The notes beneath the pieces are model-generated. The model did no database searches. It was not told the origin of the DNA and saw only the letters and a program-made list of their open reading frames with translations. Source: a virus. Taken from it: a DNA stretch of 50,203 bases. Location: positions 1-50,203 of the IMG/VR virus record IMGVR_UViG_3300027782_000124; one strand, 5' to 3'. Both the position numbers and the translations under genes were made by a program. Shown here in pieces: positions 26,741 through 50,203 of the stretch (position 1 is its first letter; each line of letters opens with the position of its first letter).

Positions 26741-27228
26741 TGATATTAAAAAATGGAAAATTTATCAACGCTGTCTTCGCTAGTAGTAAGAAAGATTTAA
26801 TACTAGCTATTTGGTATGATGAATTGTCTAAACAACATCATGAAATTGCTATAACAACAGATCTACATAATAAAATGTATGTAAAACTTTTAGAAACTTT
26901 TACTACAGATGAGATTTCTACAATGACTGATCAAAAACGCAAACATGCAGCAAAAAGTTGGGAATTAATAGTTAAAGATGTTGCTGAAAAATATGGTTTG
27001 ATATACGACCCCACAGCAACCAATCCTCAAGACAAACTCGTTATTGATCATTTATTCAATCCTCCAGAAGGAGAAGCAGGCATGGAGTTGTTATTCAATA
27101 CTAAACTAAAAATATTTGATCTATCAGCAGTAACTCAATCCACTAACACAGAGTTAAAGAAAAAACTCAGAGAAGCAAAAACTCCTTTAGAATCTCTGTA
27201 TATTGCTGGAAAATTTCTATACGAATAG
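26740..27228 (+). CDS. Conserved-looking hypothetical protein
   Basis: I do not recognise this 162-residue protein. It is hydrophilic with mixed alpha/beta character, has no signal peptide or membrane segment, and contains no clear motif apart from a Lys-rich helix (NTELKKKLREAKTPLESLY) near the C-terminus. It is translationally coupled to the upstream structural gene (TAATG overlap) and so is probably expressed late with it. Its last 12 bases overlap the end of the convergent minus-strand glycosyltransferase-like gene, which leaves no room for a terminator between them. Confidence 0.6.
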   Translation: MILKNGKFINAVFASSKKDLILAIWYDELSKQHHEIAITTDLHNKMYVKLLETFTTDEISTMTDQKRKHAAKSWELIVKDVAEKYGLIYDPTATNPQDKLVIDHLFNPPEGEAGMELLFNTKLKIFDLSAVTQSTNTELKKKLREAKTPLESLYIAGKFLYE

Positions 27229-29740: not shown

Positions 29741-29762
29741 GACTTTATTATAACAGTTTGGT

Positions 29763-31657: not shown

Positions 31658-31665
31658 TATAAATA
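31658..31665 (+). promoter_or_regulatory. T4-type late promoter TATAAATA
   Basis: This is an exact late-promoter consensus, 6 bases before the ATG of fibre paralogue 2. It re-initiates late transcription on the plus strand after the inverted five-gene cassette. The leader would be very short if initiation occurs at the usual distance, so the ATG may lie close to the transcript 5' end. Confidence 0.65.
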
Positions 31666-33150: not shown

Positions 33151-33155
33151 TCATC

Positions 33156-34607: not shown

Positions 34608-35440
34608 TGGGAATATCAGTTGAACAATATCTACATGATAGACAGGCCTGTGCCCAATGTAAGGAGCATGGAGATGAAGAGCATTGTGTGTCTACTCTAT
34701 TAAGTCGTGAAGACAATTGTATATTTTATAATTCAATTCTAGCATATCATCTACCCACTAGAACAAAGACAACGCCATTTACACCAGATGAGGACAATGC
34801 AGCAGCACAGGCTGACTTTGCTCTATTACAAGCATTCAGAGAATATATCAATGAAGATAAAATGGTAGAATATTATGTAAGAGCAGAAAAAATAGTAACA
34901 CAGATCAGAGGCATACATCAAAATGATAGAAGCATATGGAAAGGCTACTACGAGAGATATGTTAAAGATATTTTAGATGCTTTAACAAATAATAATAAAA
35001 GCACTGCAGTGGTAAAAACTGTGGAAATGTTAGAAGCATTAGAATACACCAATGGCAGAGTCATATGCACTTGGTTAAGGAATAATAGTTTATTTTCTGC
35101 GGAAGATCTTGCAATTGATACTCAATTCAGTGTACAATATTTGAGTGATAACACCAAAATAGGTTATTGGTTATGGGCTTGTCCACTAGTGGAGCATATG
35201 GAAAGAAATTATAGAAATAATACTAATTCTTTTTTTATAAAAACAATCAGAATCATTGCTCAGGCTAGAGCCAACGAGATTGCATATCAAACAGGAGCAA
35301 GAACTAACAGTGATCTTTTAGGCAAATTAGTTAGAATAGTAGGAGAGAGTGCTTGTTTTGTATTGGGATCTATCGCTAGACCCTTTATAGAAGAAAAATT
35401 TAAACATTGGCTGGCTATTTACAGTCCAAAAATAAGATAA
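34607..35440 (+). CDS. Uncharacterised protein with N-terminal Cys motif
   Basis: I set the start at the ATG at 34607 (277 residues). It shares one base with the upstream stop and has AGGAG in front; an in-frame GTG at 34562 would add 15 residues and lacks support. The N-terminus has C15, C18, C27 and C38 with H21 and H26 between them, a possible metal site. The rest is helical and charged. Its C-terminal third (KTIRIIAQARANEIAYQTGA, LVRIVGESACFVLGS) recalls the end of the upstream protein (RWARRIATPWAQHMAYKMG, then a hydrophobic helix), so the two may share a fold. The function is unknown. The coupling suggests that it works with the glycine-rich protein, perhaps as a partner or assembly factor. 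Confidence 0.55.
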   Translation: MGISVEQYLHDRQACAQCKEHGDEEHCVSTLLSREDNCIFYNSILAYHLPTRTKTTPFTPDEDNAAAQADFALLQAFREYINEDKMVEYYVRAEKIVTQIRGIHQNDRSIWKGYYERYVKDILDALTNNNKSTAVVKTVEMLEALEYTNGRVICTWLRNNSLFSAEDLAIDTQFSVQYLSDNTKIGYWLWACPLVEHMERNYRNNTNSFFIKTIRIIAQARANEIAYQTGARTNSDLLGKLVRIVGESACFVLGSIARPFIEEKFKHWLAIYSPKIR

Positions 35441-35459
35441 TTAATAAGGAGATATAAAA

Positions 35460-35639
35460 ATGGCAATAACAAAACAACAGGTGGCAGACTACATTAATGC
35501 TAATTATCAAATTGCATTATCAGAACAAGACTTGGTTAAAATTGATCAAGCATTGACTCCTGAGTTAGCAGCAATATTGATTAAATTATTAGGAGATGTT
35601 AGCTTTTTAGTACACGTTAGAGACAACGAAAGCAACTAA
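35460..35639 (+). CDS. Small protein, 59 aa
   Basis: A strong Shine-Dalgarno (AAGGAGAT) lies 6 bases before the ATG. The frame encodes 59 residues starting MAITKQQVADYINANYQ and ending in HVRDNESN. It looks like two or three amphipathic helices with no Cys and no membrane segment. It lies in the 200-base space between the Cys-motif gene and fibre paralogue 3, with 6 bases to the next ATG. The function is not recognised. The good ribosome site and tight packing argue that it is real. Confidence 0.65.
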   Translation: MAITKQQVADYINANYQIALSEQDLVKIDQALTPELAAILIKLLGDVSFLVHVRDNESN

Positions 35640-35645
35640 TAACGA

Positions 35646-37244
35646 ATGTCGTACACCATTAATAAAACAGATGGAACAAGATTAATAACCTTGAAAGATG
35701 GTACTGTAGATATTGCTTCTACAGATTTAGCTCTTTTTGGAAAAGGTTATGCAGGGTTCGGTGAACGATTAAATGAGAACTTTGTTAAAATATTAGAAAA
35801 TTTTGCTAAAAATACAGCACCTGTTAATAAGATCAAAGGACAGTTATGGTACGACACTGTAGCAAATCAAATCAAAGTATGGAATGGTAGTAAATTTAAA
35901 CCAGTGGGTAGTAGCACTACAGGAACTACACAACCAACTAATTCAAACACTGGAGACATGTGGTTTGATACAAACAATTCTCAATTGTATGTTTATAATG
36001 GAATAACATGGACATTAATTGGTCCAACCTCAGTTGCAGGATCAGGGGTAACACAAGTGTCATCAGAATCTATAAGAGACAATGTAGGCGTAAACAAATC
36101 TATATTGCGAATGATAACCAATGATGCCACTGTTGCTATTGTTAGTGCAGATCAATTTGTACCACAAACACCTGTTACGGGATTCTCTACAATATACAAA
36201 GGCATAACTTTATCTACAACAGTAAGCGGTAACAAATTTGTCGGTACTGCCACAGATGCAGACAAATTAAATGGTGTGGCTGCAGCAAATTATCTTAGAT
36301 CAGATGAAAATGATGCAACAACAGGTGCTTTTTGGATATTAAATGATGCTGGATTAAATGTAGGATCGGGTTCAGATCTTACTCTATCAGTGGTAGGAGA
36401 TAATATAGAAATAAGAAGTAACGCAGTTAATGGAGATATGGAATTCTATGTTAATGATGGGGGACTAGATACTAGAGCAATGTATATTGATGGAGGAACA
36501 GGCACAGTTATTATAAACAAATTACAAGTGACCGGATCTTCTACAGTGGTTAGCACAGGAACATTACTAGTTGAAGACAATATAATAGAATTAAACACAG
36601 GAATAACTTCTTCAGTTTCCATGCCAAATTTTACAGGATTAAAAGTCAACAGAGGGTCAACAAGCTCACCCACAGAACAGGATCTATTTTGGGTGTGGGA
36701 TGAAACTTTTGCAGATGATCTAACCACAACTTATGGCAATGCTGGAGGTGCTTGGACGGCGTTCAAGTCAGGCGGTGGCGACAATCCGTTATCAGCTCCC
36801 ACATTAGTAGATATCAGAGCTAACATAATTCATGCCACATCCACATCAGCACAATACGCAGATTTAGCAGAGAGATATGCAGGTGATCAGCACATGGAAG
36901 CGGGCGATGTGGTAATACTAGGAGGACCAAAAGAAATAACCAAGAGCACAGTGGATCTAGATCATAGAGTATTTGGAGTAATTTCAGAAAAACCAGCTTT
37001 TTTAATGAACAGCGAAGCTGGAAATAATGACAGTCATCCCATGGTAGCTCTCAAAGGTCGTGCCAACGTCAAAGTAAAAGGCACAGGCAGTGCAGGAGAT
37101 CGCATAGTAGCAAGCGATGAAACGGGAATTGCTAGGGTAGCGACTCTAGCGGAATGCACAGCATTCAATGTGTTAGGTCGTTTACTAAGCGATAAATACT
37201 CTATAGAAACGGAATTATGCGAGTGCGTAATAGGAGTTAAATAA
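35646..37244 (+). CDS. Tail-fibre-like protein, paralogue 3, with Peptidase_G2-like C-terminus
   Basis: This is the longest of the three fibre paralogues (532 residues). It shares the N-terminal module (MSYTINKTDGTRLITLKDGT, FGKGYAGFGERLNENFVKIL, NKIKGQLWYDTVANQIKVWN) and the middle blocks AANYLRSDENDATTGAFWIL and VNDGGLDTRAMYIDGG. The C-terminal 140 residues differ: AQYADLAERYAGDQHMEAGD, VVILGGPKEITKSTVDLDHR, VFGVISEKPAFLMN, then a beta-rich end with GDRIVASDETGIARVA. This resembles the Peptidase_G2/intramolecular chaperone ends of tail spikes and collar proteins, which trimerise a fibre and may then self-cleave. I cannot identify a catalytic residue, so cleavage is uncertain. Confidence 0.65.
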   Translation: MSYTINKTDGTRLITLKDGTVDIASTDLALFGKGYAGFGERLNENFVKILENFAKNTAPVNKIKGQLWYDTVANQIKVWNGSKFKPVGSSTTGTTQPTNSNTGDMWFDTNNSQLYVYNGITWTLIGPTSVAGSGVTQVSSESIRDNVGVNKSILRMITNDATVAIVSADQFVPQTPVTGFSTIYKGITLSTTVSGNKFVGTATDADKLNGVAAANYLRSDENDATTGAFWILNDAGLNVGSGSDLTLSVVGDNIEIRSNAVNGDMEFYVNDGGLDTRAMYIDGGTGTVIINKLQVTGSSTVVSTGTLLVEDNIIELNTGITSSVSMPNFTGLKVNRGSTSSPTEQDLFWVWDETFADDLTTTYGNAGGAWTAFKSGGGDNPLSAPTLVDIRANIIHATSTSAQYADLAERYAGDQHMEAGDVVILGGPKEITKSTVDLDHRVFGVISEKPAFLMNSEAGNNDSHPMVALKGRANVKVKGTGSAGDRIVASDETGIARVATLAECTAFNVLGRLLSDKYSIETELCECVIGVK

Positions 37245-37247
37245 AAT

Positions 37248-38375
37248 ATGGCTTATTCAGCAGGTGATAAGATATTAATAGATCAGTACAATCAATTTCT
37301 AAATGGCACATCCTCAGGAAACTATGGAATCAACCATATAATCGGCACGGGCACAGGCAATCTAGGTATGGGACAAACCACACTTGGCACGGCTGTGAAC
37401 ACTGGCGAAATAATCACAGCAGCTCAGTGGAATTCTCTGTTCTCGGCAATGGATAACCTTGCCAATCATGCCAATGTGGCTCTAGCCGTTAGCACCAGAC
37501 AAAGGACTGCTGGAGAAATAATTGCGGTGGTAGCTTCATTGAACTCAGATCTTCAAACGTTGGCATCATCTGTGCAGGGAGGTTGCGTCAACGCCACAGC
37601 ATTGACTACAGGTTCTCCTACTAATTCTCTCACCACAGGTGTTTGGGATACCAGTCATATCGCAGAATACTCCTATACCTTCACAGGTGGAGATCAGGCT
37701 CGATGGTTCTTTAATGCAGGAGGAAAATTAAGGATCAGTTTTGCTAACACACAACAAAACAGCACAGGGTTGGACACTGTAGTAACAGTATTAATGAATA
37801 ATATAGGAAATTTTGATATTGGAGCCACGGTTTCTACATGCTCTGGCAACATGAACGATGACTCATCTGAGGGTGATTCAAATCAGGCAGGCTCTGCAGC
37901 AGGACCAAATCCCAATGTGGATGGTCGAACATTGGGTTATTATGACCTTACTACAGAATACTCAACACTATTAGATTATTATGAATCATCTGGCACTTAT
38001 GATTATTCCTATGATGGGTTGGTATCCATCAGAGTGGAAGCCAAAACTAACGCAGCACACGGAGATGGCCGAGGCAACAATGGAAATGTAATCACTGTGA
38101 GAGTTTCTATGGTAAACACCGATGTGGGCTATACCAAAGGCGGTAACTATCCTACTATAGCAGGCACTAAAGATTATGACGGTAAAACTTCCAAAATAAA
38201 AGAAAATTCATGTGGACCCACCACAATATCTTTCAATTCGAGATATCCCGACAACAGTGAAGGTTTATCCACTAGCCTAGGTAGTATAGCACCAACTGTT
38301 GCTAAAGTGGCTGCTTCTTACACTGAAGACATAAGCACCAGCTCAACTCCTAACAGATCTACCACTTCTATTTAA
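37248..38375 (+). CDS. Virion structural protein, fibre-associated
   Basis: This 375-residue protein begins MAYSAGDKILIDQYNQFLNG, followed by a helix ITAAQWNSLFSAMDNLANHA. This start is like that of accessory fibre proteins in marine T4-like phages. The rest is beta-rich and Gly/Asn/Ser/Thr-rich (GGDQARWFFNAGGKLRISFA, NITGNFDIGATV-like strands, GYYDLTTEYSTLLDYYESSG), consistent with a jelly-roll or fibre tip. The last 40 residues are Ser/Thr-rich. It starts 3 bases after fibre paralogue 3 and is the last structural gene before the enzyme block. The exact place in the virion is not known. Confidence 0.55.
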   Translation: MAYSAGDKILIDQYNQFLNGTSSGNYGINHIIGTGTGNLGMGQTTLGTAVNTGEIITAAQWNSLFSAMDNLANHANVALAVSTRQRTAGEIIAVVASLNSDLQTLASSVQGGCVNATALTTGSPTNSLTTGVWDTSHIAEYSYTFTGGDQARWFFNAGGKLRISFANTQQNSTGLDTVVTVLMNNIGNFDIGATVSTCSGNMNDDSSEGDSNQAGSAAGPNPNVDGRTLGYYDLTTEYSTLLDYYESSGTYDYSYDGLVSIRVEAKTNAAHGDGRGNNGNVITVRVSMVNTDVGYTKGGNYPTIAGTKDYDGKTSKIKENSCGPTTISFNSRYPDNSEGLSTSLGSIAPTVAKVAASYTEDISTSSTPNRSTTSI

Positions 38376-38423
38376 AATTTTACCATCGTTGATTTTTTCC
38401 ATAATTAATTGTATAATTCAGTT

Positions 38424-38744
38424 ATGGATCTAGAATCTTTAAAAAAAACTGCAGATCTTATGCATGATATCGCAGTCAGTAAACAGAATGCTCTGGAAAG
38501 AATGAAAAGTAGACAGATATTGGTCTATAATGATCATGTATTTAGAGCTGACGCAGAAACAATAAATTTAGTAAACATATTAAAACAGAATCAACAAGAT
38601 AAAACAATTTACATGATAGACAGCAACAATAATCCTTGTGAAATTAAAGATCCCTCAGAATTTTTAGCCAAATTATTAGAACGCAATCAAGAAAGTATTA
38701 ATGCTTATCATCAATTATATCAAACTTTTAGAAAAAAAGGTTAA
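38424..38744 (+). CDS. Small helical hypothetical protein, 106 aa
   Basis: The start is taken as ATG 38424 (MDLESLKKTADLMHDIAVSK). A TTG five codons earlier lies in the AT-rich leader, which holds a TATAATT sequence at 38412-38418 that could be a sigma-70-type -10 element. The protein has an N-terminal helix, a short beta part (ILVYNDHVFRADAETINLVN) and a C-terminal helix with LLERNQESINAYHQLY. It has no signal peptide and no catalytic motif. It precedes the first glycosyltransferase-like gene by 2 bases and may be the first gene of the enzyme operon. The function is not recognised. Confidence 0.55.
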   Translation: MDLESLKKTADLMHDIAVSKQNALERMKSRQILVYNDHVFRADAETINLVNILKQNQQDKTIYMIDSNNNPCEIKDPSEFLAKLLERNQESINAYHQLYQTFRKKG

Positions 38745-38746
38745 GC

Positions 38747-39493
38747 ATGACCACAGGAGTGTTGATATATAGCTTTGATACACCAACTACTGCTTATTCT
38801 AAATTAACAGAGAGATGTATCTCACATGTTAACTTACATTTAGGACTACCTATCACTGTGGTCAGTGATAATAAACATTTTGAGGGTGCAGACAACATAC
38901 ATATAACACCAAATACCAACAATTGGAGACGTTACAACAATCAAACAGTCCCGTGGTATAATGAGGAGAGAACGAAAGCCTATAATCATAGTCCTTATGA
39001 TACTACGATATTAATAGATTGTGATTATTTTGTAATGTCTGATTATCTTTTACAGCTTAGTAGAGCAGCAGATGATATTCTTCTCCATACTAAATTACAT
39101 GACGTAACAGGAAGAAACAATATTTTTCATACCAGAGAAGCATTACTACCATTGGTGTGGGCAACAGTGGTTATTTTTAAAAAAAATAATTTTGTTGAAA
39201 AAGTTTTTAGCATGATAGAACACATACAAAATTATTATCAACATTATAGAAATCTATATAGAATAGCACACATACCTTATAGAAATGATTATGCATTTGC
39301 TATAGCACTGCATCAAATGTATGGACAAAATTTTAAAGATTATAGTATACCCACACCAATGAACATGATAGGAAAACATGGAAAAGTTTTAGAACTTACT
39401 ACACAATCTATGACATTCAGCTGGAAAGAATCTTGGGCAAAAATATGTAATCAAGATATTCATGTTTTTGATAAGGAGTTTTTCAATGTCTAA
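38747..39493 (+). CDS. Glycosyltransferase-like protein
   Basis: This 248-residue protein has a GT-A-like layout: an N-terminal GVLIYSFDTPTTAYSKLTER strand and helix, ITVVSDN, and then TTILIDCDYFVMSDYLLQL, where DCD would be the DxD metal site (residues about 87-89). Further on are LPLVWATVVIFKKNNFVEKV and YRNDYAFAIALHQMYGQNF, resembling the acceptor side of glycosyltransferases in marine phages. No membrane anchor is visible, so it is probably cytoplasmic. It overlaps the following gene by 8 bases. The sugar and acceptor are unknown. Confidence 0.6.
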   Translation: MTTGVLIYSFDTPTTAYSKLTERCISHVNLHLGLPITVVSDNKHFEGADNIHITPNTNNWRRYNNQTVPWYNEERTKAYNHSPYDTTILIDCDYFVMSDYLLQLSRAADDILLHTKLHDVTGRNNIFHTREALLPLVWATVVIFKKNNFVEKVFSMIEHIQNYYQHYRNLYRIAHIPYRNDYAFAIALHQMYGQNFKDYSIPTPMNMIGKHGKVLELTTQSMTFSWKESWAKICNQDIHVFDKEFFNV

Positions 39494-40283
39494 AGGTTTT
39501 TTATGGATTGCTCAGAATAATTCTAACACCGATTATATAAAACTAAGTGTAGAATTGTGTAAAAGTATAAAAAAATTCTGTAGAATTAATCAAGTTTGCA
39601 TCATTGTAGATCAAAACACCAAAGTTCCAAACAATGTTTTTGACAAAGTGGTTGTGCTTGAGCACGACGAAAGCAAAAATGTTGAATGGAAAATGGGAAA
39701 CGAGTGGAAAGTTTTTAATCTTTCTCCTTTTACTCACACTATTAAATTAGAAGCAGATATGTTATTTCCTTGTTCTGTTGATTGGTGGTGGAATTTTTTG
39801 TGTCAACACGATATGATTTTTTCTTATCATTGTAGGGATTATCAAGATAGCATAGTAACAGATTCACCTTATAGGAAATTACATCAACAAAATTCTTTAC
39901 CAGATGTTTACAACGGTCTTCATTATTTTAGAAGGAGTGTTTGGGCTAATAAATTTTTTAATATTTGTAGATCTATAATAAAAAATTGGGAATATGTTAA
40001 AGAAAATCTTTTGATTAATTGTCATGATAATGTGCCATCGACTGATGTGGTTTATGCATTAGCTAACAAATTACAAGATCCTATACAACAATACAAAATA
40101 AAATATGATTGGTTCAATTTTATTCATGGTAAACACGGAATTAATCAAATACCAGGAAATAGAAATTTTTACAATTATTTAAGTCCATTTAATGTTGATA
40201 ATGAAATATACCTAGGAGGTTATAGAATAACAAGACCATGGCATTATCATGAAAAAAATTTATTAGAAAAAATTTATGTCTGA
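39486..40283 (+). CDS. Glycosyltransferase-like protein
   Basis: The start is ATG 39486 (MSKGFLWIAQNNSNTDYIKL, 265 residues), chosen because AAGGAG lies 7 bases before it; the ATG eight codons earlier has no such site. The plan is like a GT-A enzyme: a nucleotide-binding-like N-terminus (VCIIVDQ), then HTIKLEADMLFPCSVDWWW where EAD takes the place of DxD, and a GLHYFRRSVWANKFFNICRS helix. The C-terminal part is Asn/Tyr-rich (NFYNYLSPFNVDNEIYLGGY). The missing first Asp of DxD leaves activity uncertain. It overlaps both neighbours by 8 bases, so it is part of the coupled operon. Confidence 0.5.
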   Translation: MSKGFLWIAQNNSNTDYIKLSVELCKSIKKFCRINQVCIIVDQNTKVPNNVFDKVVVLEHDESKNVEWKMGNEWKVFNLSPFTHTIKLEADMLFPCSVDWWWNFLCQHDMIFSYHCRDYQDSIVTDSPYRKLHQQNSLPDVYNGLHYFRRSVWANKFFNICRSIIKNWEYVKENLLINCHDNVPSTDVVYALANKLQDPIQQYKIKYDWFNFIHGKHGINQIPGNRNFYNYLSPFNVDNEIYLGGYRITRPWHYHEKNLLEKIYV

Positions 40284-40626
40284 ACTAATCAAATCTCTTG
40301 AACAATTTGCTATTAGACCTAAAAAAAGATATTTTATCACAGTAGAAAATGAAAAAATATTAGAAATTGGCAAAGGAAATAAAGAAAATAGTATAGAGAT
40401 ATCATTAGAAAACTTTAAAAAACTTCAAGAAAGTGGAGAAGAAAATTTTTTATATAAAAAGGGAAAATTTATTCGTATTCTAAAAACAACAACAACAGTG
40501 ATAGAACCAGAATTAAAAAAGAATAAAGAACAAGGCTATGAATTATTAAATCATAATCCTTTTTGGCCTATTTCTTACAAAGAAAAACAAGAAAATTTAT
40601 ATTCATGGCAGATAAAATCAGAATAA
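40276..40626 (+). CDS. Small Lys/Glu-rich hypothetical protein
   Basis: This 116-residue protein starts MSELIKSLEQFAIRPKKRYF and is rich in Lys and Glu, with no Cys. Short strands (YFITVENEKILEIG, FIRILKTTTTVIEPE) suggest a small beta domain. The C-terminus NPFWPISYKEKQENLYSW is aromatic. It overlaps the genes on both sides (8 and 22 bases) and is therefore likely translated with them. I see no known family. It could be a partner of the adjacent glycosyltransferases or a substrate of the enzymes downstream, but nothing in the sequence decides this. Confidence 0.5.
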   Translation: MSELIKSLEQFAIRPKKRYFITVENEKILEIGKGNKENSIEISLENFKKLQESGEENFLYKKGKFIRILKTTTTVIEPELKKNKEQGYELLNHNPFWPISYKEKQENLYSWQIKSE

Positions 40627-41501
40627 GTGATTTAGATTTTGTATTCATTAGCTACAGAGAGCCCAATGCTGATGAAAATTATGCTGACCTATTGAATATA
40701 GTTCCATGGGCCAAACGAGTGCATGGTGTAAAAGGATTTGATAATGCACACAAAGCTGCTGCCGACAAGGCAGAAACAGAATTTTTTATATCTATAGATG
40801 GAGATAATCGCATAGATCCTTCATTCCTATTGCAAACACTGGATTGGACCAAAACTAATCCTGCTGCAGTACATAGATGGAGAGCAAAAAATATTATTAA
40901 TGGATTGGTGTATGGCAATGGGGGTGTTGTGGGATGGCCTAAGAAAACATGTTTAGGAATGAAAACACATGAAAATGCAGTAGATGAGAAAGCAAAAATA
41001 GATTTTTGTTGGACAGTACCACATGAAAATTTACACAATGTTTATTCTACAACATATATTAATCATACTCCAGAGCAGGCTTTTATCGCTGGATATAGAG
41101 AAGGTGTTAAGATGAGTCTAGACAGAGGAAAAAAAGTTGACCCGGCAAGTTTTATAAAGATTATACCTAGAATAAATTTACAAACATTAGTAATTTGGAT
41201 GAGTCTAGGAGCAGATGTTGAAAACGGAAAATGGGCAATGTTAGGAGCTCGATGTGGTTGTTATATGTCTACTTTAGATACAAATTATGATATTACTTTA
41301 ATTAGAGATTTAGAATTCATGGGTGATAAATTTTCTAAAATGATGTACGATATAGAGTCTGATATGGGTGCTTATGGCAACAGTTTAAGACAAAGACTAG
41401 GATTACCTATTGCAGATTTTGATGCAAGAGAGAGTCAATTCTATAAATTTTGTCAACGTCCTCACATTAACAAAGGAGTTCAAGATCGTGAAACTAAGTG
41501 A
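40605..41501 (+). CDS. Glycosyltransferase-like protein (GT2-type)
   Basis: The start is ATG 40605 (MADKIRISDLDFVFISYREP, 298 residues); a TTG 14 codons earlier is less likely. The pattern DFVFISYREPNADENYADLL, WAKRVHGVKGFDNAHKAAAD and FFISIDGDNRIDPSFLLQ is one I recall from marine phage proteins annotated as glycosyltransferase. The DGD in IDGDN is the candidate metal and nucleotide-sugar site. A VYGNGGVVGWPKK block and an HTPEQAFIAGYREGVKMSLD helix complete the catalytic part. The C-terminal 100 residues are helical. The last 14 bases overlap the first radical SAM gene of the array, so it is coupled to it. Confidence 0.65.
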   Translation: MADKIRISDLDFVFISYREPNADENYADLLNIVPWAKRVHGVKGFDNAHKAAADKAETEFFISIDGDNRIDPSFLLQTLDWTKTNPAAVHRWRAKNIINGLVYGNGGVVGWPKKTCLGMKTHENAVDEKAKIDFCWTVPHENLHNVYSTTYINHTPEQAFIAGYREGVKMSLDRGKKVDPASFIKIIPRINLQTLVIWMSLGADVENGKWAMLGARCGCYMSTLDTNYDITLIRDLEFMGDKFSKMMYDIESDMGAYGNSLRQRLGLPIADFDARESQFYKFCQRPHINKGVQDRETK

Positions 41502-42885
41502 TTATAAGAATGATGCAGACTTTGCAAAAAAACAGTTAGATGAGGTCAGTGATAGTTTTTGCCTAGCAAAGTGGAATCAGGTGTCATTGCACCTGCCCAC
41601 AGGGCTGACCAATTCCTGCTATCATCCGCCATTGCATGAGATAGATGCAGAGGTACTTGCAAAAAATCCAGCAGCACTGCACAACACAGAAGAAAAGATC
41701 AAGGAGAGACAACAAATGCTGGCAGGTGAACGACCTAAAGGCTGTTCCTATTGTTGGAAGATGGAAGACACAGGCGAGATGAGTGATCGCCACTATCGTT
41801 CTGGCGAGCCCTGGGCCATGATAGATTTTGAAAAGATTCGAGACAATCCCCTGGACAGAACCCATGTGCCTCGTTATGTGGAAGTAAACTTTAATAATGC
41901 TTGTAATTTTAAATGCAGCTATTGTTCACCACAATTCTCCACAGCATGGGGCAAGGAAATAGAAATACACGGAGCGTATCCTACTAACCCTGGACACAAT
42001 GCGCCGGAGCATTTCGTCGGCAGGAGGAAGCCTATACCCAACAGAGAGACTAATCCCTACGTGGAAGCATTTTGGCGTTGGTGGCCGGAATTATATAAAA
42101 ATTTAAAACATTTCCGCATGACCGGTGGAGAACCTATGATGGATGTGAATACCTATCGAGTGTTTGACTACATTATAGATCATCCTAAAAAAGATTTGCA
42201 CTTAAATGTTACATCTAATATGTGTCCTCCGGATGTTAAATTAAAAAACAAGTATTTTGATCAAGTCAAAAGGATATGTTTAGATGAAAAAGTGGAACAT
42301 TTTATGCAATTTGTATCTGTAGATGCTCATGGCCCACAAGCAGAGTACATAAGGAACGGATTAAATTATAATCAATTTATGGACAATGTGAATGAGTTCC
42401 TACACAGCATACCTGTGCGTAATTCTGTCACATTTATCATTACCTACAATAATTTAAGTGTTACTTCACTGGATAAATTACTCAAGGATATACGTTTATT
42501 AAGATCAGAACATTCAAAAACCTATCAGCGAGTGTGGTTTGATATACCTTTGCTGCGTCAACCGCTATGGCAACAGATTACTCTACTGCCAGAATCATAT
42601 CAACGTATACATGAAGATAATATCAAATGGATGATAGAACATCAAGAGCAGATTGGTCCTAAACAAGTGACAGAAACTAGATTAGATTTCTCATTGTTCA
42701 AAGACTTTGAGATACAAAAGATGCAGCGTAATCTTGCTTACTGGCGTAAGCATGCAGAACAAGATAATATGCAAAAAAAGAATTTTTACACATTTTTTGC
42801 AGAACACGATCGCAGAAGAGGCACAAATTTTGAACAAACATTTCCTGAGATGCAGGAATTTTGGCAACATTGTAAAAACCTATAA
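41488..42885 (+). CDS. Radical SAM protein with N-terminal twitch-like domain (array member 1)
   Basis: This 465-residue enzyme starts at GTG 41488, supported by AAGGAG 9 bases upstream. The N-terminal 90 residues carry C25, a Gly at 39, C44 and the pair C86/C89 (GCSYCWKMEDTG). This is a four-cysteine, twitch-like pattern that would hold an auxiliary iron-sulphur cluster. The radical SAM core follows: CNFKCSYC (C139, C143, C146) and TGGEP (212-216), plus the conserved VSVDAHGPQAEYIRNG block. The C-terminus ends FEQTFPEMQEFW. It is the closest sibling of the next gene (shared HPPxHxxDA and LHNT motifs). Codon use in the first part is more GC-rich than in members 3-5. The substrate is unknown. 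Confidence 0.8.
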   Translation: MKLSDYKNDADFAKKQLDEVSDSFCLAKWNQVSLHLPTGLTNSCYHPPLHEIDAEVLAKNPAALHNTEEKIKERQQMLAGERPKGCSYCWKMEDTGEMSDRHYRSGEPWAMIDFEKIRDNPLDRTHVPRYVEVNFNNACNFKCSYCSPQFSTAWGKEIEIHGAYPTNPGHNAPEHFVGRRKPIPNRETNPYVEAFWRWWPELYKNLKHFRMTGGEPMMDVNTYRVFDYIIDHPKKDLHLNVTSNMCPPDVKLKNKYFDQVKRICLDEKVEHFMQFVSVDAHGPQAEYIRNGLNYNQFMDNVNEFLHSIPVRNSVTFIITYNNLSVTSLDKLLKDIRLLRSEHSKTYQRVWFDIPLLRQPLWQQITLLPESYQRIHEDNIKWMIEHQEQIGPKQVTETRLDFSLFKDFEIQKMQRNLAYWRKHAEQDNMQKKNFYTFFAEHDRRRGTNFEQTFPEMQEFWQHCKNL

Positions 42886-42894
42886 TTAGAACAT

Positions 42895-44244
42895 ATGAAT
42901 CCAGATCTTGAATATCGTAAAAAAATATTAGACTCCTTATCTCCTAGTTTTTGTGGTGCAAAATGGTACAATGCTACCATATGGTTAGGATCTGGCATGT
43001 CTACTAGTTGCCATCATCCACCTGCACATAGGGTCGATGCAAAAAAATTAAAAAATAATCCTAAGTTATTACATAACACTCCCCAAAAGAAACAGGATCG
43101 TGCCAAAATGATTGCTGGAGAAAGACCTGCAGGCTGTGAATACTGCTGGAAGATAGAAGACATGGGCAGAGATGCTGTGAGTGATAGAGTATACAAAAGT
43201 AAAATTTATTCAGATGCAGATCTAGAACGAGCATTCAATACACCTATTACAGAAGATGTAAATCTTAAAACCTTAGAGATTGCCTTTGATAAAACATGTA
43301 ATTTTGCTTGTTCTTATTGTAATCCTGCATTTAGTACCACATGGGCAAAAGATATAAAACAAAACGGTCCTTATAAAAATTTAATATCAGATGGTAGAAA
43401 TCATTTCACTCATTCACATGATAGTGCTCAATTATACAAATTAGAAGAAATTAATCCATACGTAGAAGCATTTTTCAAATGGTGGGAAACAGATCTACAT
43501 AAGACACTGGATGAATTAAGGATCACAGGAGGAGAACCCATGATGTCACCTTCTCTGTGGAGATTGTTGGATTGGTTTGAAACACAGGGAGAACGAATTA
43601 ATCCCAATATGAGATTGGCTATTAACTCTAACCTGGTACCCAAGGCAGAATTATTTGAAAAGTTTATAGAAAAATGTAAACGAATAAAAAATCTACATAT
43701 CTATACTTCCAACGAATCAACGTATGCTCACTCAGATTATATTCGAGATGGTATAGATTATACTCGTTGGTATGTAAATTTTGTTAATGTGATTAATCAA
43801 ATAAAACCTGCAGGATTGCACAACATGTGTACCATAAATGCCCTATGTCTAGAATCATTGCCTCAGTTTCTAGATGTCATTGTGAGAAATAAATTAGATG
43901 CTAAAAGAGTTTATGGAGTAGATGTAAACTTTACTTTAAACATACTGAGATTTCCTAGTTTTCAATCTCCTTTAGTATTGCCAGACTATCTAAGAACAGA
44001 ATTTCGAGATAACCTATCTCAATGGTTAGACATAAACATAGCTCATTGCGAGCTTATGGAGGTTGCTCATGTGCAGAGATTAATAGATTATCTAGATATA
44101 GTTAAAACACCGCATTCTGAAGCATTTGATTTACCACGACTAAGGGCCGACTTTAAAAATTTCTATAAACAATATGATGAGAGAAGAAATAAAGATTTTA
44201 CAAAAACGTTCGCAAGAATAGGAGAGTGGTACCGTGGCTTATGA
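42895..44244 (+). CDS. Radical SAM protein with N-terminal twitch-like domain (array member 2)
   Basis: This 449-residue paralogue has the same architecture as member 1. The N-terminal cysteines are C20, C39, C81 and C84 (SFCGAKWYN, STSCHHPP, GCEYCWKIEDMG), and the core motif is CNFACSYC (C135, C139, C142) with TGGEPMM. It differs at the block that reads S-x-D-x-x-G-x-x-x-E-Y in the other members. Here it is YTSNESTYAHSDYIRDG, so the Asp after Ser is missing. This may change the substrate or the activity. It begins 9 bases after member 1 and overlaps member 3 by 11 bases. Confidence 0.8.
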   Translation: MNPDLEYRKKILDSLSPSFCGAKWYNATIWLGSGMSTSCHHPPAHRVDAKKLKNNPKLLHNTPQKKQDRAKMIAGERPAGCEYCWKIEDMGRDAVSDRVYKSKIYSDADLERAFNTPITEDVNLKTLEIAFDKTCNFACSYCNPAFSTTWAKDIKQNGPYKNLISDGRNHFTHSHDSAQLYKLEEINPYVEAFFKWWETDLHKTLDELRITGGEPMMSPSLWRLLDWFETQGERINPNMRLAINSNLVPKAELFEKFIEKCKRIKNLHIYTSNESTYAHSDYIRDGIDYTRWYVNFVNVINQIKPAGLHNMCTINALCLESLPQFLDVIVRNKLDAKRVYGVDVNFTLNILRFPSFQSPLVLPDYLRTEFRDNLSQWLDINIAHCELMEVAHVQRLIDYLDIVKTPHSEAFDLPRLRADFKNFYKQYDERRNKDFTKTFARIGEWYRGL

Positions 44245-45517
44245 GTATGGGGCTAAAGAGCCCGAAAAATTAAAAATTAAAGATATGACTTCAAAGCAGA
44301 AAGAACTGCTATTAGATAGCGATACTTTTTGTATGATGCCATGGTTACACATACACGCTTTTCCTGATGGAAGAGCCTATCCTTGTTGTTTTGGACTGGA
44401 TCAGCATCCTGTAGGAAATCTTAATAAAAATTCTATGGAAGAAGTGTTCAATGGCAAAGACATGCGAGAGATGAGATTGAACATGTTGTCTAATAAAACT
44501 TCTCGACAATGTGGGAAATGTTATGATCAAGAGAAATCAGGATTTTTTAGTTTAAGATTAAGTTCTAACAAGCATTTTGGACACAATATAGGTATGATTG
44601 ATAACACGAAAGCAGATGGCACTGCTGATTTTGTAATCAAATATTGGGATATACGATTTAGTAATCTTTGCAATTTTGCCTGTCGTAGTTGTGGCACATG
44701 GTTCTCATCCAATTGGTACGAAGACCATAAAAAATTAACTGGCAAACCACCAGATCATGCCAAAATAATGAAAGTAGGCCGAACAGCAGATGATATTTGG
44801 AATCAGATGTTAACACAGTTTGATCATGTGGAGCAATTCTATTTTGCAGGGGGAGAACCTCTTATAATGGAAGAACATTATAAAATTTTAAAAGAATTAG
44901 ATCGTAGAAAGATGTATCATGTGAGACTAATTTACAACACCAATTTTAGCAAATTAACTTTTAAAGACATGGATGTACTAGAATTGTGGAACAAGTTTAA
45001 TTCTGTTAGTGTAGGTGCTAGTCTAGATGCAATGGGGCCAAGAGCAGAATTTATGAGAAAAGGTACAGTATGGACAGATATAGAAGCAAATAGAAAAAGA
45101 ATGCAAGAAGTTTGTCCAAAAGTAGATTTTTACATAAGTGCCACAGTAGGATTAATTAATGCTTTGCATGTAGTAGATTTTCATAGAACGTGGTCAGAAC
45201 AAGGTTATATAAAACCGCAAGATTTTAATTTTAATTTATTACAATTTCCTTTTTGGCAAAGGATCGATTTATTACCAGAATCAATGAAACAACAAGTAAA
45301 AGAAAAATACGAGAAACATATCGAATGGTTAAAACCAAAAGATCATCTAACAAGAGCAACCAAGGGCTTTCAGTCAGGATTAGATTATATGATGAGAAGA
45401 GATAATTTTATACATATAGATCAATTTAAAAAAAATATGAAAAAAATAGATGATATAAGGAATGAAAATATATTAAAAACTTTTCCAGAATTAACAGAAT
45501 TATATGAAAAGAATTAA
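44234..45517 (+). CDS. Radical SAM protein with N-terminal twitch-like domain (array member 3)
   Basis: This 427-residue member starts at GTG 44234, with AGGAG 9 bases upstream. Its twitch-like part is FCMMPWLHIHAFPDGRAYPCC, with C33, G46, C51 and C52, then C93/C96 (QCGKCYDQEKSG). The core has CNFACRSC (C146, C150, C153) and AGGEPLI, then GASLDAMGPRAEFMRKG. The PWxHxxxxxxG and PCC forms here are closer to known SPASM/twitch domains than those of members 1 and 2. The C-terminal segment LKTFPELTELY matches the family ending. It overlaps member 4 by 14 bases. The substrate is unknown. Confidence 0.8.
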   Translation: MAYEYGAKEPEKLKIKDMTSKQKELLLDSDTFCMMPWLHIHAFPDGRAYPCCFGLDQHPVGNLNKNSMEEVFNGKDMREMRLNMLSNKTSRQCGKCYDQEKSGFFSLRLSSNKHFGHNIGMIDNTKADGTADFVIKYWDIRFSNLCNFACRSCGTWFSSNWYEDHKKLTGKPPDHAKIMKVGRTADDIWNQMLTQFDHVEQFYFAGGEPLIMEEHYKILKELDRRKMYHVRLIYNTNFSKLTFKDMDVLELWNKFNSVSVGASLDAMGPRAEFMRKGTVWTDIEANRKRMQEVCPKVDFYISATVGLINALHVVDFHRTWSEQGYIKPQDFNFNLLQFPFWQRIDLLPESMKQQVKEKYEKHIEWLKPKDHLTRATKGFQSGLDYMMRRDNFIHIDQFKKNMKKIDDIRNENILKTFPELTELYEKN

Positions 45518-46811
45518 ACCTAACGAAGGCAATAATAAATTTTGTATGGCTCCCTGGACTCATACCTATCTTTCCCCTCAAACTGAAAGACGTATGTGCT
45601 GTGCATCTAGAGAATCAGCAAGAAGTTTTAAACAATATATTGATCGCTCAGGAGAATTAGTCAAATATGATCCCCAAACTCTAGAACAACATTGGAATAG
45701 TGAACATATGAAGAGCGTAAGACTAAGAATGTTAGCCGGAGAAACATTACCAGAATGTGAGGTATGTAATAATAAATTATTAAACACAGATGTTTATAGA
45801 GATTATTTTACAAATTTATTTAAAAACAAAATAAATCAAGCATTTGAAAACACAGACGATAATGGAGCAACTACAATGCGACCTGTAAGTTTTGATTATC
45901 GTTTTAATAATCTTTGTAATTTTAAATGTCGTCAATGTGGGGATATGTTAAGTTCTAGTTGGGAATCAGAACAAAAAAATCATAATATGTGGTCTGAAAC
46001 TAATCAGCCATGGATGGCATCACCATTACGAGAACAAATCAAACAATTTCAAGACACTCAAATAGTCAAAGAGTTTATGAATGCTGTGGAAGATCGTAGT
46101 ATTGAAGAGATATATTGGGTAGGTGGCGAACCTTTAATGTGGGATATACATTGGGATAGCATGTCTAGAATAATAAAATTAGGATTTCAAGATAAAGTAT
46201 ATGCTCGATATAACACTAATTTAAGTAGAATTGATTTTAAAGGTAAAAATTTATTTCGAGATATTTTAAGCAAATTTAAAGATTGGCAAGTATGTGCATC
46301 TATTGATGGAACAGGAATAGTAGGAGAGTATATTCGCACAGGATTAAAATATAATCAATTCTTAGATCATTTTACGCAAGGATTAGCGTTTGCTCGACAC
46401 AAAAGACAGATGCAATTAGATTTCACAATTACTATGCCAGGTTTATTAGAATTAAAAAATATGTTTGATCTTAGTCAACGATTAAATGCCAAACTATTAA
46501 CTAAAGTTACATTTGCTTTTGATGCTAGGCAATTAATGAGTCCTATGTGTTTACCTAGACAATTATTAAACACTATTATTGATGAAAATTTAGAATATAT
46601 TAAAAAGAAGTCTACACCATTGCAACAGAGTCTAATAGATGTATTAGAAAATATGAAAAACAGACCAACATTTGAGGAAGAATATAAAGATCCAGAACAA
46701 ATTAAGCAAGGCAAAAAAAGAATTGAAAAGATTGATATTATTAGAAAAACAGATATTAAAAAAATATTAGAGCAAGATAAAAGGATGTTAGAATGGTGGA
46801 AAAATATATAA
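45504..46811 (+). CDS. Radical SAM protein with N-terminal twitch-like domain (array member 4)
   Basis: This 435-residue member has N-terminal FCMAPWTHTYLSPQTERRMCC, with C14, C32 and C33. The glycine seen in members 1-3 and 5 is missing here. The pair is C85/C88 (ECEVCNNKLL), and the W/E-D-x-G tail after it is lost. The core has CNFKCRQC (C138, C142, C145) and VGGEPLM. The conserved block is CASIDGTGIVGEYIRTG. An insertion between CxxC and the core contains YRDYFTNLFKNK. The C-terminus (KKILEQDKRMLEWW) keeps only part of the TFPE ending. It overlaps member 5 by 19 bases. Auxiliary cluster binding looks possible but is less certain than in its siblings. Confidence 0.78.
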   Translation: MKRIKPNEGNNKFCMAPWTHTYLSPQTERRMCCASRESARSFKQYIDRSGELVKYDPQTLEQHWNSEHMKSVRLRMLAGETLPECEVCNNKLLNTDVYRDYFTNLFKNKINQAFENTDDNGATTMRPVSFDYRFNNLCNFKCRQCGDMLSSSWESEQKNHNMWSETNQPWMASPLREQIKQFQDTQIVKEFMNAVEDRSIEEIYWVGGEPLMWDIHWDSMSRIIKLGFQDKVYARYNTNLSRIDFKGKNLFRDILSKFKDWQVCASIDGTGIVGEYIRTGLKYNQFLDHFTQGLAFARHKRQMQLDFTITMPGLLELKNMFDLSQRLNAKLLTKVTFAFDARQLMSPMCLPRQLLNTIIDENLEYIKKKSTPLQQSLIDVLENMKNRPTFEEEYKDPEQIKQGKKRIEKIDIIRKTDIKKILEQDKRMLEWWKNI

Positions 46812-47965
46812 AATCTAATATATGTGTGTTACCATGGACGCATTTAGAAGTAGATGTGAATGGTTCAGCATCACCTTGTTGTCTTTATAAAGGAGAAATA
46901 GCAGATTATAAGGTTTATAAACATAAACTTGACGTCATACAAAATTCAGAATACATGAACGATTTGAGAGATCAATTTCGTCAAGGAGAACGTCCCAAAG
47001 GTTGTAGTAATTGTTGGCAAGAAGAAGATGCCGGCAAAACCAGTAAAAGAATGAATTCTATCTATAAAATGAAAAATAGTTTACAGGATTGGACTCCCAA
47101 AACAACGCCTACTTTAAAATTTATTGATTTCAAACTGGGCAATGTGTGTAATCTAAAATGTCGTATATGCGGCAGTTGGAGCAGTTCAAAATGGGCACAG
47201 GAAGAGATTGCTTATGGACCAAATCCTCTAGCAAAGAAACAATTAGATGAAGGACAATGGCCTAAACGGAATCCTGCGTTCTTTGAAGATATTAAACCTG
47301 TATTAAAAGATGTAGAATATTTTGAGTTTACAGGCGGCGAACCTTTCATGATAGAAAATCATTTTAAGATACTAGAACATTGTGTAGAGCAAGGATATGC
47401 TCGCAATCAAGACATACATTATAATACCAATGGCACACAATTGCCTGATCGAAGAGTGTTTTGGCTATGGAGCCAATTTAAACATGTAGAGATTGCATTC
47501 AGTATAGATGACACAGGAGCAGCATTTGAATATCAACGACATCCTGCTCAATGGGATCAAGTTAACGAAAATTTAAAAGAATTCAATATAAGATCCACGC
47601 TCACAGGCAATACCGATTTTCAAATTTGTTCCACAATTAGTATCTTTAATATATTAAATTTAAACACTTTAGTTAAATGGGTAAAAGAGTTCAATCCCAA
47701 ATTCCTGTACATTAATACTCTATTTGATCCTGAATACTTTAATGTACAGACCTTACCTATAGAATTAAAAAAAATAATAACAGAAAAGTATCGAGATATA
47801 AAAGAATTAGCTACTATAATCAGTTATATGAACAGTGCAGATCGATATTCTGATGCTGTACATGAGCAAAGGAAGAAAAGAATACTGCAAGCAGATCAGT
47901 ACAGAGAAGAAAATTTTGCTGCAGTTTTTCCAGAGTTAAATAAATTTTTAAAGATATATGAATAG
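46793..47965 (+). CDS. Radical SAM protein with N-terminal twitch-like domain (array member 5)
   Basis: This is the shortest member, 390 residues, because its N-terminal lead-in is only 10 residues. The twitch-like part is ICVLPWTHLEVDVNGSASPCC, with C11, G24, C29 and C30, then C71/C74 (GCSNCWQEEDAGKTSKR). The core has CNLKCRIC (C119, C123, C126) and TGGEPFM. AFSIDDTGAAFEYQRH matches the shared block. The ending is FAAVFPELNKFL. The start codon has AAGGA in front, and the gene overlaps the SGNH-like gene by 8 bases. Pairwise it looks most like member 3. Confidence 0.8.
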   Translation: MVEKYIKSNICVLPWTHLEVDVNGSASPCCLYKGEIADYKVYKHKLDVIQNSEYMNDLRDQFRQGERPKGCSNCWQEEDAGKTSKRMNSIYKMKNSLQDWTPKTTPTLKFIDFKLGNVCNLKCRICGSWSSSKWAQEEIAYGPNPLAKKQLDEGQWPKRNPAFFEDIKPVLKDVEYFEFTGGEPFMIENHFKILEHCVEQGYARNQDIHYNTNGTQLPDRRVFWLWSQFKHVEIAFSIDDTGAAFEYQRHPAQWDQVNENLKEFNIRSTLTGNTDFQICSTISIFNILNLNTLVKWVKEFNPKFLYINTLFDPEYFNVQTLPIELKKIITEKYRDIKELATIISYMNSADRYSDAVHEQRKKRILQADQYREENFAAVFPELNKFLKIYE

Positions 47966-48761
47966 AACATTATTAGCAGGGGGTTGCAGCTTTACTTTTG
48001 GACACGAATTATCTGATGATATACAAGGACAAAAACCATCAGAAAATTCTTGGGCTGCTTTGTTAGCAAAAACAGAAAAATTAGAATATAAATCTGTCAC
48101 TTATCCCGGGTCAGGAAATTCTGGTATAGCAAGGAGAGTTTTTGAATATATAACATCTTCTGAGTATAAGAACACAACTGTTGCAGTGATGTGGACTTTT
48201 ACCTCAAGATACGATTGGGCAATGCCTAGAAACATAATGTTAGAAAAATCTAGGTGGACATCAATTACCCCATGGGACACAACAGATAGACAAGTAGAGG
48301 CAGAAACATCTTTCTCTATGAATGAATCTCATTTAGTGACCTGGAAACAACGTAGAGATAATATGCAACTTACAGGAGTAGGACCATTCGCTGATTCTAT
48401 ATATCGTTATGCCGCTAACCAGTATCATGAGACATATCTTAGTTGGAAAAGTATAATTTGGTTGCAAAATATATTGGAAAAGAAAAAAATACCTTATTTT
48501 TTTACCTTAGCTGACAATGTGCTATTTTATGATGAGTTAAAACCTCTTAAAGAGATTGATACATTTCTTAATGGATTGTATAATGAAATTAATTTTAATA
48601 ACTGGTTTTTTTTCGGAGAAAGAAATATGGGATTTAATCAATGGGCACTACTAAACAACTATCCACGTGGTACAACACATCCTTTAGATGAAGCACATAA
48701 AGATGCAGCTATTTTAATGAAAGACAAATTTTCAGCAATTGTTAAACAAAATAGGAGATAA
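47958..48761 (+). CDS. SGNH/GDSL-like hydrolase
   Basis: This 267-residue protein begins RTLLAGGCSFTFGHELSDD, where Ser in GCSFTFG is the candidate nucleophile of an SGNH-type esterase. A second block, SVTYPGSGNSGIARRVFEYI, provides the Gly/Asn of the oxyanion site. The C-terminal TTHPLDEAHKDAAILMKD region could contain the catalytic His. Such proteins act on acyl or other ester groups of glycans and lipids. No signal peptide is seen, so it should be cytoplasmic or virion-bound. It follows radical SAM member 5 with an 8-base overlap and precedes the small cationic peptide by one base. The true substrate is unknown. Confidence 0.65.
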   Translation: MNRTLLAGGCSFTFGHELSDDIQGQKPSENSWAALLAKTEKLEYKSVTYPGSGNSGIARRVFEYITSSEYKNTTVAVMWTFTSRYDWAMPRNIMLEKSRWTSITPWDTTDRQVEAETSFSMNESHLVTWKQRRDNMQLTGVGPFADSIYRYAANQYHETYLSWKSIIWLQNILEKKKIPYFFTLADNVLFYDELKPLKEIDTFLNGLYNEINFNNWFFFGERNMGFNQWALLNNYPRGTTHPLDEAHKDAAILMKDKFSAIVKQNRR

Positions 48762-48762
48762 T

Positions 48763-48867
48763 ATGATAAAATGGATTAAATCTATAATCACAAAAATTAA
48801 AATAGAAATTCAATATCGTAAGAGATTGAAAGAGTTAAAAAAGAAAGATCCTTTCATCTACAAATAA
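48763..48867 (+). CDS. 34-residue cationic peptide
   Basis: A small frame starts at ATG 48763 with AGGAGA 5 bases upstream and ends 1 base before the carbamoyltransferase ATG. It encodes 34 residues: an amphipathic Ile/Lys-rich first half (MIKWIKSIITKIKIEIQY) and a Lys/Arg-rich end finishing DPFIYK. Net charge is about +9. There is no Cys, Ser-rich core or leader-like region typical of a modified peptide. I recall similar short proteins in marine phages, but no function. It could be a membrane-associating peptide, a partner of a neighbour, or a substrate. The evidence is limited to the ribosome site and spacing. Confidence 0.6.
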   Translation: MIKWIKSIITKIKIEIQYRKRLKELKKKDPFIYK

Positions 48868-48868
48868 A

Positions 48869-50203
48869 ATGAGAATATTAGGAATCAACTGTCTAAATCA
48901 CGATGCTGCTATGGCTGTGGTTGAAGATGGAGAAATTCTATGGGCAGCACACGCAGAAAGATACAGCAAAGATAAAAATGATCATTATCTTAATTGGCAA
49001 ATAGTAAATGAGGCTCGTGAATACGGACCATGGGACAAAGTAGTTTATTATGAGCGACCTTTACTAAAAAAAACTAGACAAGCCTATGCTGGTCAATGGG
49101 CTGAAGTTTTCTCTAGGTCAAATATACCACAAAATTATTTAAATGCTTTTGGAATAAAAATAGATGAATATGTGAGTCACCACGAATCTCATGCTGCCGG
49201 GGGATTTTTTACATCTCCGTTCCATGATGCTATGGTGCTAACAGTGGATGCCATAGGAGAATGGGACACCACTTCAATATGGCAAGCCAAAGGCAATCAA
49301 TTAGATCTATGCTACAAAATTAAATATCCTCATTCATTAGGAGTGCTCTATTCAGCATTTACACAGCGGGTAGGACTCAAACCTGCCGAAGAAGAATATA
49401 TTCTAATGGGCATGGCAGCATATGGAGAACCTAGGCATGTAGCAGAAATTTATAGAGATTTATTATGTAGAGATGGAGATTTTACTTTAAAGAAGAATTT
49501 ACATAAAGGATTGGGTAATTGGCTGCCTGAAGCTGATCCCGTGGATCTAGCAGCCAGCATACAACAAGTTACGGAACAAGAATTAGAAAAATTATGGCGT
49601 AAGGCACGACAGTACATACCCGCAGGTCAGATAGCAGTCAGTCGGTACGGCAACAAAAGAAATCTAGTGTATGGCGGAGGCGTGGCTCTAAATTGTGTTG
49701 CTAATAGCAAATTAGCCAATTTAGGATTGTTTGATAACATATGGATCATGCCCAATCCAGGCGATGCTGGCAGTTCCATTGGTTGTATTGCTGCTGCCGA
49801 ACGAAAACATATCAATTGGAGACACCCTTTCTTAGGACATAATATACAAGGCGAATATCCTGTGGATCACGTGATAAAAGAATTAGAAACCAATCGCATG
49901 GTAGGGGTGGCAAACGGTAGAGCCGAGTTCGGTCCCAGAGCTCTTGGTAATAGATCACTGCTGGCAGATCCTCGAGGAGATGATATCAAAGATTTGGTAA
50001 ATGGCATCAAGCAAAGACAGGAATTTCGACCATTTGCACCCGCTATACTAGAGGAGGATTTACACGAGTATTTTGAGGTGCCTAAGTGTGTTGTAAACAC
50101 CCCCTATATGCAATTTATAGGCATTTGTAAGCATGGTAAAGACTTCCCTGCCATTGTGCATCATGACGGGACAAGTCGTGTGCAAACAGTGAATAAAACG
50201 CAG
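48869..50203 (+). CDS. Carbamoyltransferase, NodU/CmcH family (3' end beyond window)
   Basis: The first 445 residues are visible and the frame is open at the edge. This family transfers a carbamoyl group from carbamoyl phosphate, through carbamoyl-adenylate, to hydroxyl groups of sugars or natural products. Visible features are a GINCLNHDAAMAVVEDGEIL start, a YVSHHESHAAGGFFTSPF metal site, VLTVDAIGEWDTTSIW, YILMGMAAYGEP, and VYGGGVALNCVANSKL of the N-terminal ASKHA-like domain. FGPRALGNRSLLADPR, the family's strongest signature, opens the C-terminal YrdC-like part. NodU-type enzymes are usually 550-620 residues, so roughly 100-170 residues are missing. It is downstream of the SGNH-like hydrolase and the cationic peptide and fits a glycan- or metabolite-decorating pathway. 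Confidence 0.88.
   Translation, partial: MRILGINCLNHDAAMAVVEDGEILWAAHAERYSKDKNDHYLNWQIVNEAREYGPWDKVVYYERPLLKKTRQAYAGQWAEVFSRSNIPQNYLNAFGIKIDEYVSHHESHAAGGFFTSPFHDAMVLTVDAIGEWDTTSIWQAKGNQLDLCYKIKYPHSLGVLYSAFTQRVGLKPAEEEYILMGMAAYGEPRHVAEIYRDLLCRDGDFTLKKNLHKGLGNWLPEADPVDLAASIQQVTEQELEKLWRKARQYIPAGQIAVSRYGNKRNLVYGGGVALNCVANSKLANLGLFDNIWIMPNPGDAGSSIGCIAAAERKHINWRHPFLGHNIQGEYPVDHVIKELETNRMVGVANGRAEFGPRALGNRSLLADPRGDDIKDLVNGIKQRQEFRPFAPAILEEDLHEYFEVPKCVVNTPYMQFIGICKHGKDFPAIVHHDGTSRVQTVNKTQ

Follow-up and report, generated by a model that had tools for sequence, protein, structure and literature searches.

Phage loci rich in radical S-adenosylmethionine (rSAM) genes are known already. In the T4-related Campylobacter phages CP220 and CPt10, a module of five rSAM genes, an amidinotransferase and nucleotide-diphospho-sugar transferases was described (Timms et al. 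2010, PMC2853527). In pelagimyophages, the host recognition cluster is an island behind the baseplate genes that contains tail fibres, glycosyltransferase family 8 (GT8) genes and rSAM cassettes (Zaragoza-Solas et al. 2020, PMC7029224), and among the marine T4-like genomes with many rSAM genes, TARA_ERS488813_N000010 was reported to carry 12 (Nishimura et al. 2017, PMC5332604). The name of the protein family concerned here, N_Twi_rSAM (NCBIfam NF033640), is also established. In the present work, five tandem rSAM genes (rSAM1–5) of the IMG/VR virus record IMGVR_UViG_3300027782_000124 were analysed; "the window" denotes the whole stretch studied, positions 1–50,203 of that record. The array is tentatively interpreted, at somewhat less than an even chance, as an ancient, functionally linked five-enzyme assembly line which is encoded in a tail-fibre operon and, late in infection, tailors an unusual glycan that most likely sits on the fibres or the virion surface. 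No published description of the five-orthologue cassette, its fusions, the carbamoyltransferase link or the function of the family was found, which is weak evidence of novelty as most subscription papers lay outside the search.

The five genes are complete consecutive open reading frames (ORFs) on the plus strand, and the neighbours overlap or lie 9 nt apart. The bit scores below refer to NF033640, and the locus counts to 71 long loci of related phages with at least 12 kb of downstream sequence.

41488–42885, plus strand: rSAM1; GTG start behind AAAGGAG; 322 bits; signature TG..NSCYHPPLH; orthologue in 71/71 loci; AlphaFold2 model with a predicted local distance difference test (pLDDT) score of 94.5.
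42895–44244, plus strand: rSAM2, sister group of rSAM1; 288 bits; signature SCHHPP.H; 71/71 loci.
44234–45517, plus strand: rSAM3; 414 bits; signature AYPCC; 69/71 loci; AlphaFold2 pLDDT 95.3.
45504–46811, plus strand: rSAM4; 305 bits; signature ERRMCC; 71/71 loci.
46793–47965, plus strand: rSAM5; 374 bits; signature RPCCL; 69/71 loci.

All five proteins matched NF033640 over nearly the full length of the model (from position 1 or 2 to 395–398) with 287.6–413.6 bits (E 1.6e-85 to 8.8e-124), the curated cut-off being 170 bits. Chance is excluded by these E-values together with the preservation of the array in more than 100 contigs. The identity of rSAM2–5 to rSAM1 was 22–34% in the alignment. 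Invariant in all five (rSAM1 numbering) were the twitch cysteines C25, C44, C86 and C89, the CxxxCxxC motif (139/143/146), GGEP 213–216, S277 and R289. The seven cysteines, GGEP, S277 and R289 were conserved at 98–100% in approximately 555 non-redundant relatives of the five groups, and each group displayed its own invariant paralogue signature. The preliminary description of this DNA, which had reported five consecutive genes with twitch cysteines, CxxxCxxC and GGEP, was thereby confirmed, and the mutated core cysteines that it had named as an argument against enzymes were not observed. Its "S-[VIL]-D-x-x-G" block, assigned to most members, was likewise found, with rSAM2 as the exception (S-N-E). 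Judging from the sequence motifs, each of the five is predicted to bind two clusters, namely the [4Fe-4S] cluster that cleaves SAM and an auxiliary one within the N-terminal twitch. An antisense tRNA-Lys predicted by ARAGORN across the rSAM1/rSAM2 junction (42872–42952, minus strand) was absent from the viral relatives checked and is probably spurious.

IMG/VR was scanned with rSAM1, rSAM3 and rSAM4, and in the resulting loci the other four members adjoined the query. For the 136 non-redundant loci, a minimum of four rSAM hits was required, which raises the fractions, although the presence of five distinct groups was not a criterion. All five orthologous groups stood side by side in 122 of them. 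The order 1-2-3-4-5, which is that of the window, was detected in 39 loci and 1-2-3-5-4 in 75, and eight further loci had one duplicate. In a tree of 117 proteins (quick search, with support from the Shimodaira–Hasegawa-like approximate likelihood ratio test only), the window proteins grouped with their own phage orthologues, the support values being 99 for rSAM1, 100 for rSAM2, rSAM3 and rSAM4, and 91–93 for the rSAM5 group. rSAM1 and rSAM2 formed one deep clade apart from groups 3, 4 and 5. Bacterial sequences, from Bdellovibrionota and other metagenome-assembled genomes (MAGs), were placed within or next to groups 1–3.

The orthologue branching and the position of the bacterial sequences indicate that the duplication is ancient and was accompanied by exchange with bacteria. 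The five groups split before these phages diverged and have been under strong purifying selection since: the dN/dS ratio against close relatives was approximately 0.03–0.15 where it could be estimated, a rough value because synonymous sites were near saturation in some pairs. Recent tandem duplication is ruled out by the tree and by the orthology in more than 100 contigs, and degenerate paralogues by the cysteine conservation and dN/dS. From the duplication-and-divergence view of the preliminary description, what can be retained is that one phage operon encodes five intact, non-redundant paralogues that probably act together, whereas a lineage-specific "five-fold expansion" is not supported by the tree and the cross-phage orthology. 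The independent imports that it had set against this view apply in part. The identity to the window changed abruptly along the array (rSAM1–5: 93, 94, 77, 75 and 78% in locus L063; 79, 92, 77, 75 and 93% in L010), and these jumps between neighbouring genes, within the range of 75–94% identity, suggest homologous recombination inside the cassette. That the five copies serve dosage, or are drifting paralogues with no distinct roles, is hardly credible: extra copies do occur in some relatives and jumbo phage records hold 7–16 family members, but the order and identity of the five groups, each with its invariant signature, are kept in more than 100 loci, and this explanation is already disfavoured.

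Fusions between members were detected in relatives. rSAM3 and rSAM5 were joined into a single polypeptide of 837–852 amino acids with two complete N-twitch domains in four distinct sequences (L034, L041, L054, L057), and in two others an extra rSAM was fused to rSAM4 (L152, L171). An SGNH-type domain preceded rSAM2 in L077 and L122 (E 9e-64 to stand-alone SGNH genes), while in L195 rSAM3 was fused in front of such a domain. These fusions suggest that the rSAM enzymes and the SGNH hydrolases serve the same substrate, and the five enzymes probably act together.

The array is located in a unit in which, from 31672 to 50203, all genes share one orientation, with gaps of at most 107 nt and some overlaps. 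Its other features, together with the regulatory elements of the window, are as follows.

54–980, minus strand: T4 gp55-like late sigma factor (phrog_12791, 3.7e-81).
31658–31665, plus strand: T4-late-promoter-like TATAAATA, located 14 nt ahead of the first fibre gene.
31672–38375, plus strand: structural genes of tail-fibre type, with which the operon begins; weak Mtd_N/phrog_15511 matches; c8 and c7 conserved upstream.
38424–38744, plus strand: small fibre-associated protein c6, present in 54/66 loci, with a putative role in tail-fibre assembly.
38747–39493, plus strand: second c2 glycosyltransferase-like gene, of the same cluster as the next.
39462–40283, plus strand: glycogenin-like (GT8-type) glycosyltransferase c2 (profile A7 against glycogenin, E 4.8e-6), present in 62/66 loci.
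40276–40626, plus strand: c11, fibre-region ORF of 116 amino acids, present in 36/66 loci; positional equivalents c16 and c20 elsewhere.
40605–41501, plus strand: c0, GT-A-like putative glycosyltransferase with a DGDN motif directly 5' of rSAM1; alternative TTG start at 40563; present in 123/136 loci.
47958–48761, plus strand: SGNH/GDSL-type hydrolase (profile A11 against GDSL/TesA, E 1.1e-5).
48869–50203, plus strand: carbamoyltransferase of the NodU/CmcH/TobZ type, truncated at the window end (PF02543 2.4e-47, PF16861 2.3e-34), present in 70/71 loci.

Conserved neighbours, which the preliminary description had proposed to look for in related phages, were found. Besides the carbamoyltransferase, the 71 long loci contained a DegT aminotransferase (49 loci), an epimerase (45) and an amidinotransferase (22), and the gene content is that of a sugar-tailoring island. 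In the group with the order 1-2-3-5-4, a protein of 359 amino acids, c3, follows rSAM4 directly (L172:11250–12326 and 80 other loci); it is absent from the window and had no Pfam or PDB match. Within the window, baseplate genes are followed by fibres and GT8-like genes; the other border of a pelagimyophage-type island, on the side of the neck gene gp14, lies beyond the window end. Between the baseplate and fibre genes, a single ORF of 4311 amino acids (10850–23785) probably encodes a giant virion protein.

The window has only two copies of the T4 late promoter core TATAAATA, compared with 10.1 ± 3.2 in shuffled sequences: one precedes the baseplate genes (1049), the other the first fibre gene (31658). 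The core was also rare in the 136 loci (35 copies, where base composition predicts about 434), and where a copy lay close to a gene start in the relatives, the gene was mostly a fibre gene (c8). Sigma-70-type promoters were not above chance. Late expression of the array together with the fibres is likely, given the one-direction operon, the TATAAATA copy at 31658 and the gp55-like late sigma factor; this timing makes a virion target more plausible than early host remodelling, without proving it.

The same glycan chemistry could also deliver its product to the host lipopolysaccharide (LPS) or capsule and serve in receptor masking, in superinfection exclusion or in keeping progeny off debris. 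Such a destination is considered unlikely. In its favour, in Vibrio phage K566 the related cluster lies near PagP-like, LpxC-like and LPS galactosyltransferase-like genes, and O-chain modification was preferred by Zaragoza-Solas et al. for the GT8 genes of the same island type (PMC7029224). In the window, however, the operon opens with fibre genes behind a late-type promoter, no further TATAAATA occurs up to the window end, and late timing would be less useful for superinfection exclusion.

According to the preferred explanation, that of virion glycan tailoring, each of the five enzymes would perform one radical step, such as a dehydrogenation, an epimerisation or a cross-link, presumably in sequence. 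Together with the GT8-like glycosyltransferases, the SGNH hydrolase and the carbamoyltransferase, they would assemble and modify an unusual glycan in the late stage of infection. In many relatives, the epimerase, DegT aminotransferase and amidinotransferase may join the glycan building. The product would most likely be attached to the tail fibres or the virion surface.

Prediction and comparison of structures, as advised in the preliminary description, yielded confident AlphaFold models of rSAM3 and rSAM1, but the structure search did not discriminate between substrate classes. The N-terminal segment aligned with the C-terminal twitch of BtrN (4m7t 184–256, E 1.5e-6), so the auxiliary domain lies here at the opposite end of the chain. 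Similarly, the SPASM (PF13186) match preceded the core, at residues 33–97 of rSAM3 and 11–75 of rSAM5; the C-terminal SPASM/twitch of maturases of ribosomally synthesized and post-translationally modified peptides (RiPPs) was thus not found. No solved structure covered the whole chain, and the TM-scores to the query were at most 0.39. By structure and sequence, the cores resembled peptide enzymes (CteB, SkfB, SuiB, anSME) and small-molecule, nucleotide or sugar enzymes (viperin, BlsE, the BtrN twitch, AprD4, DesII) about equally. As no structure covers the chain either, the substrate class is read from gene context alone.

The equal resemblance of the cores to peptide and sugar enzymes speaks against a glycan substrate, as do three other observations: Bdellovibrionota chromosomes carry family genes mostly outside glycan clusters, Elusimicrobia fuse them to tetratricopeptide repeat (TPR) domains, for which protein binding is the more frequent role, and the clusters c0, c3 and c4 are unannotated, c0 having no Pfam or PDB match and the PDB profile searches for all three giving no useful match. 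Alternatively, a protein, either a tail fibre or c6/c11, could be modified directly, for example by epimerisation or by thioether or aryl cross-links, as by the SPASM/twitch maturases of RiPPs. The closest PDB cores include SkfB, CteB, SuiB and anSME, fibres and two small conserved proteins are encoded in the same operon, so that c6 and c11 are candidate substrates, and TPR-fused homologues exist in Elusimicrobia. Nevertheless, direct protein modification is judged distinctly unlikely: no RiPP recognition element was matched in rSAM1–5, the array leaves no room for precursor genes, the conserved partners are carbohydrate enzymes, and the small c11 is not universal (36/66 loci). In the Elusimicrobia MAG G017 (2.9 Mb; loci L232 and L233), tandem TPR-repeat proteins fused to N-twitch rSAM domains were observed, with 84 family matches in total.

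An action on nucleotides or nucleic acids of the viperin or QueE type, for counter-defence or DNA modification, is very improbable. Viperin models appeared as weak secondary hits for rSAM2–5, which scored 19–28 bits with NF038283 (cut-off 180), and a QueC-domain gene is present in the window (29763–30566, minus strand). The latter, however, belongs to a separate minus-strand unit, and none of the genes conserved alongside the array is a nucleotide or DNA-modification partner. That second operon (27217–31590, minus strand) comprises an rSAM gene (30559–31590), the QueC-domain gene, a glycosyltransferase-like gene and a methyltransferase.

The carriers of the array are uncultivated aquatic jumbo phages of the T4 superfamily, and two groups of them keep the cassette in order. 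The baseplate protein of the window was nearest to those of the jumbo phages Phosso, SCTP-2, Atu_ph07 and PA5oct, and no close relative was found in INPHARED. Among related IMG/VR records, lengths of up to 357 kb occur, and each record has 7–16 matches to the family, including weak ones. Five loci filed under the MAGs Pelagibacter, TMED41, TMED56, MED606 and Flavobacterium (L224–L228) contain pieces of the phage locus and look like misbinned phage DNA; four of them include the fibre-to-rSAM stretch, and L228 has rSAM genes and a few others.

If glycan tailoring is correct, the array would represent virus-encoded surface chemistry not yet assigned to phages, and would show how lytic phages make complex surface chemistry and why about 6.5 kb is spent on it. 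A further-reaching possibility, which we regard as rather doubtful, is a new multi-step radical pathway with no bacterial counterpart, in which N-twitch enzymes work as a complex and produce a new modified glycan or glycopeptide on the tail fibres.

As to the described systems, the amidinotransferase of CP220 is homologous to cluster c14. In contrast, the CP220 rSAM proteins lack the N-terminal twitch, only one giving a weak core match to the N-twitch profile, and membership of the array in the CP220 module is thereby ruled out. The other rSAM of the window (30559–31590, minus strand) is homologous to three CP220 rSAMs (E 3.8e-16). For TARA_ERS488813_N000010, the array structure and the rSAM family were not described (PMC5332604). 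In BtrN and other SPASM/twitch enzymes the auxiliary domain is C-terminal, whereas it is N-terminal in rSAM1–5. The cultured Vibrio phages K566 and K567 carry four N-twitch rSAM genes interleaved with glycosyltransferases, including an LPS galactosyltransferase-like gene. These proteins share about 24% identity with those of the window, do not represent the five orthologous groups, and two of the four score below the NF033640 cut-off; no carbamoyltransferase was annotated in the stretch read. K566 and K567 nevertheless offer a laboratory entry to the family. The pelagimyophage island was described as hypervariable, with no fixed five-enzyme cassette reported (PMC7029224), and the window phages differ from pelagimyophages by jumbo-type baseplates and by their large records. 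With NF033640 the array shares the N-terminal twitch and the rSAM core; that family has a name but no known function, and its definition omits the five co-conserved subgroups, the fixed order and the fusions seen here. While the rSAM genes of phage host recognition were earlier seen as hypervariable, unexplained cassettes, the five orthologues form a fixed set and make a testable pathway out of a hitherto uncharacterised NCBI family.

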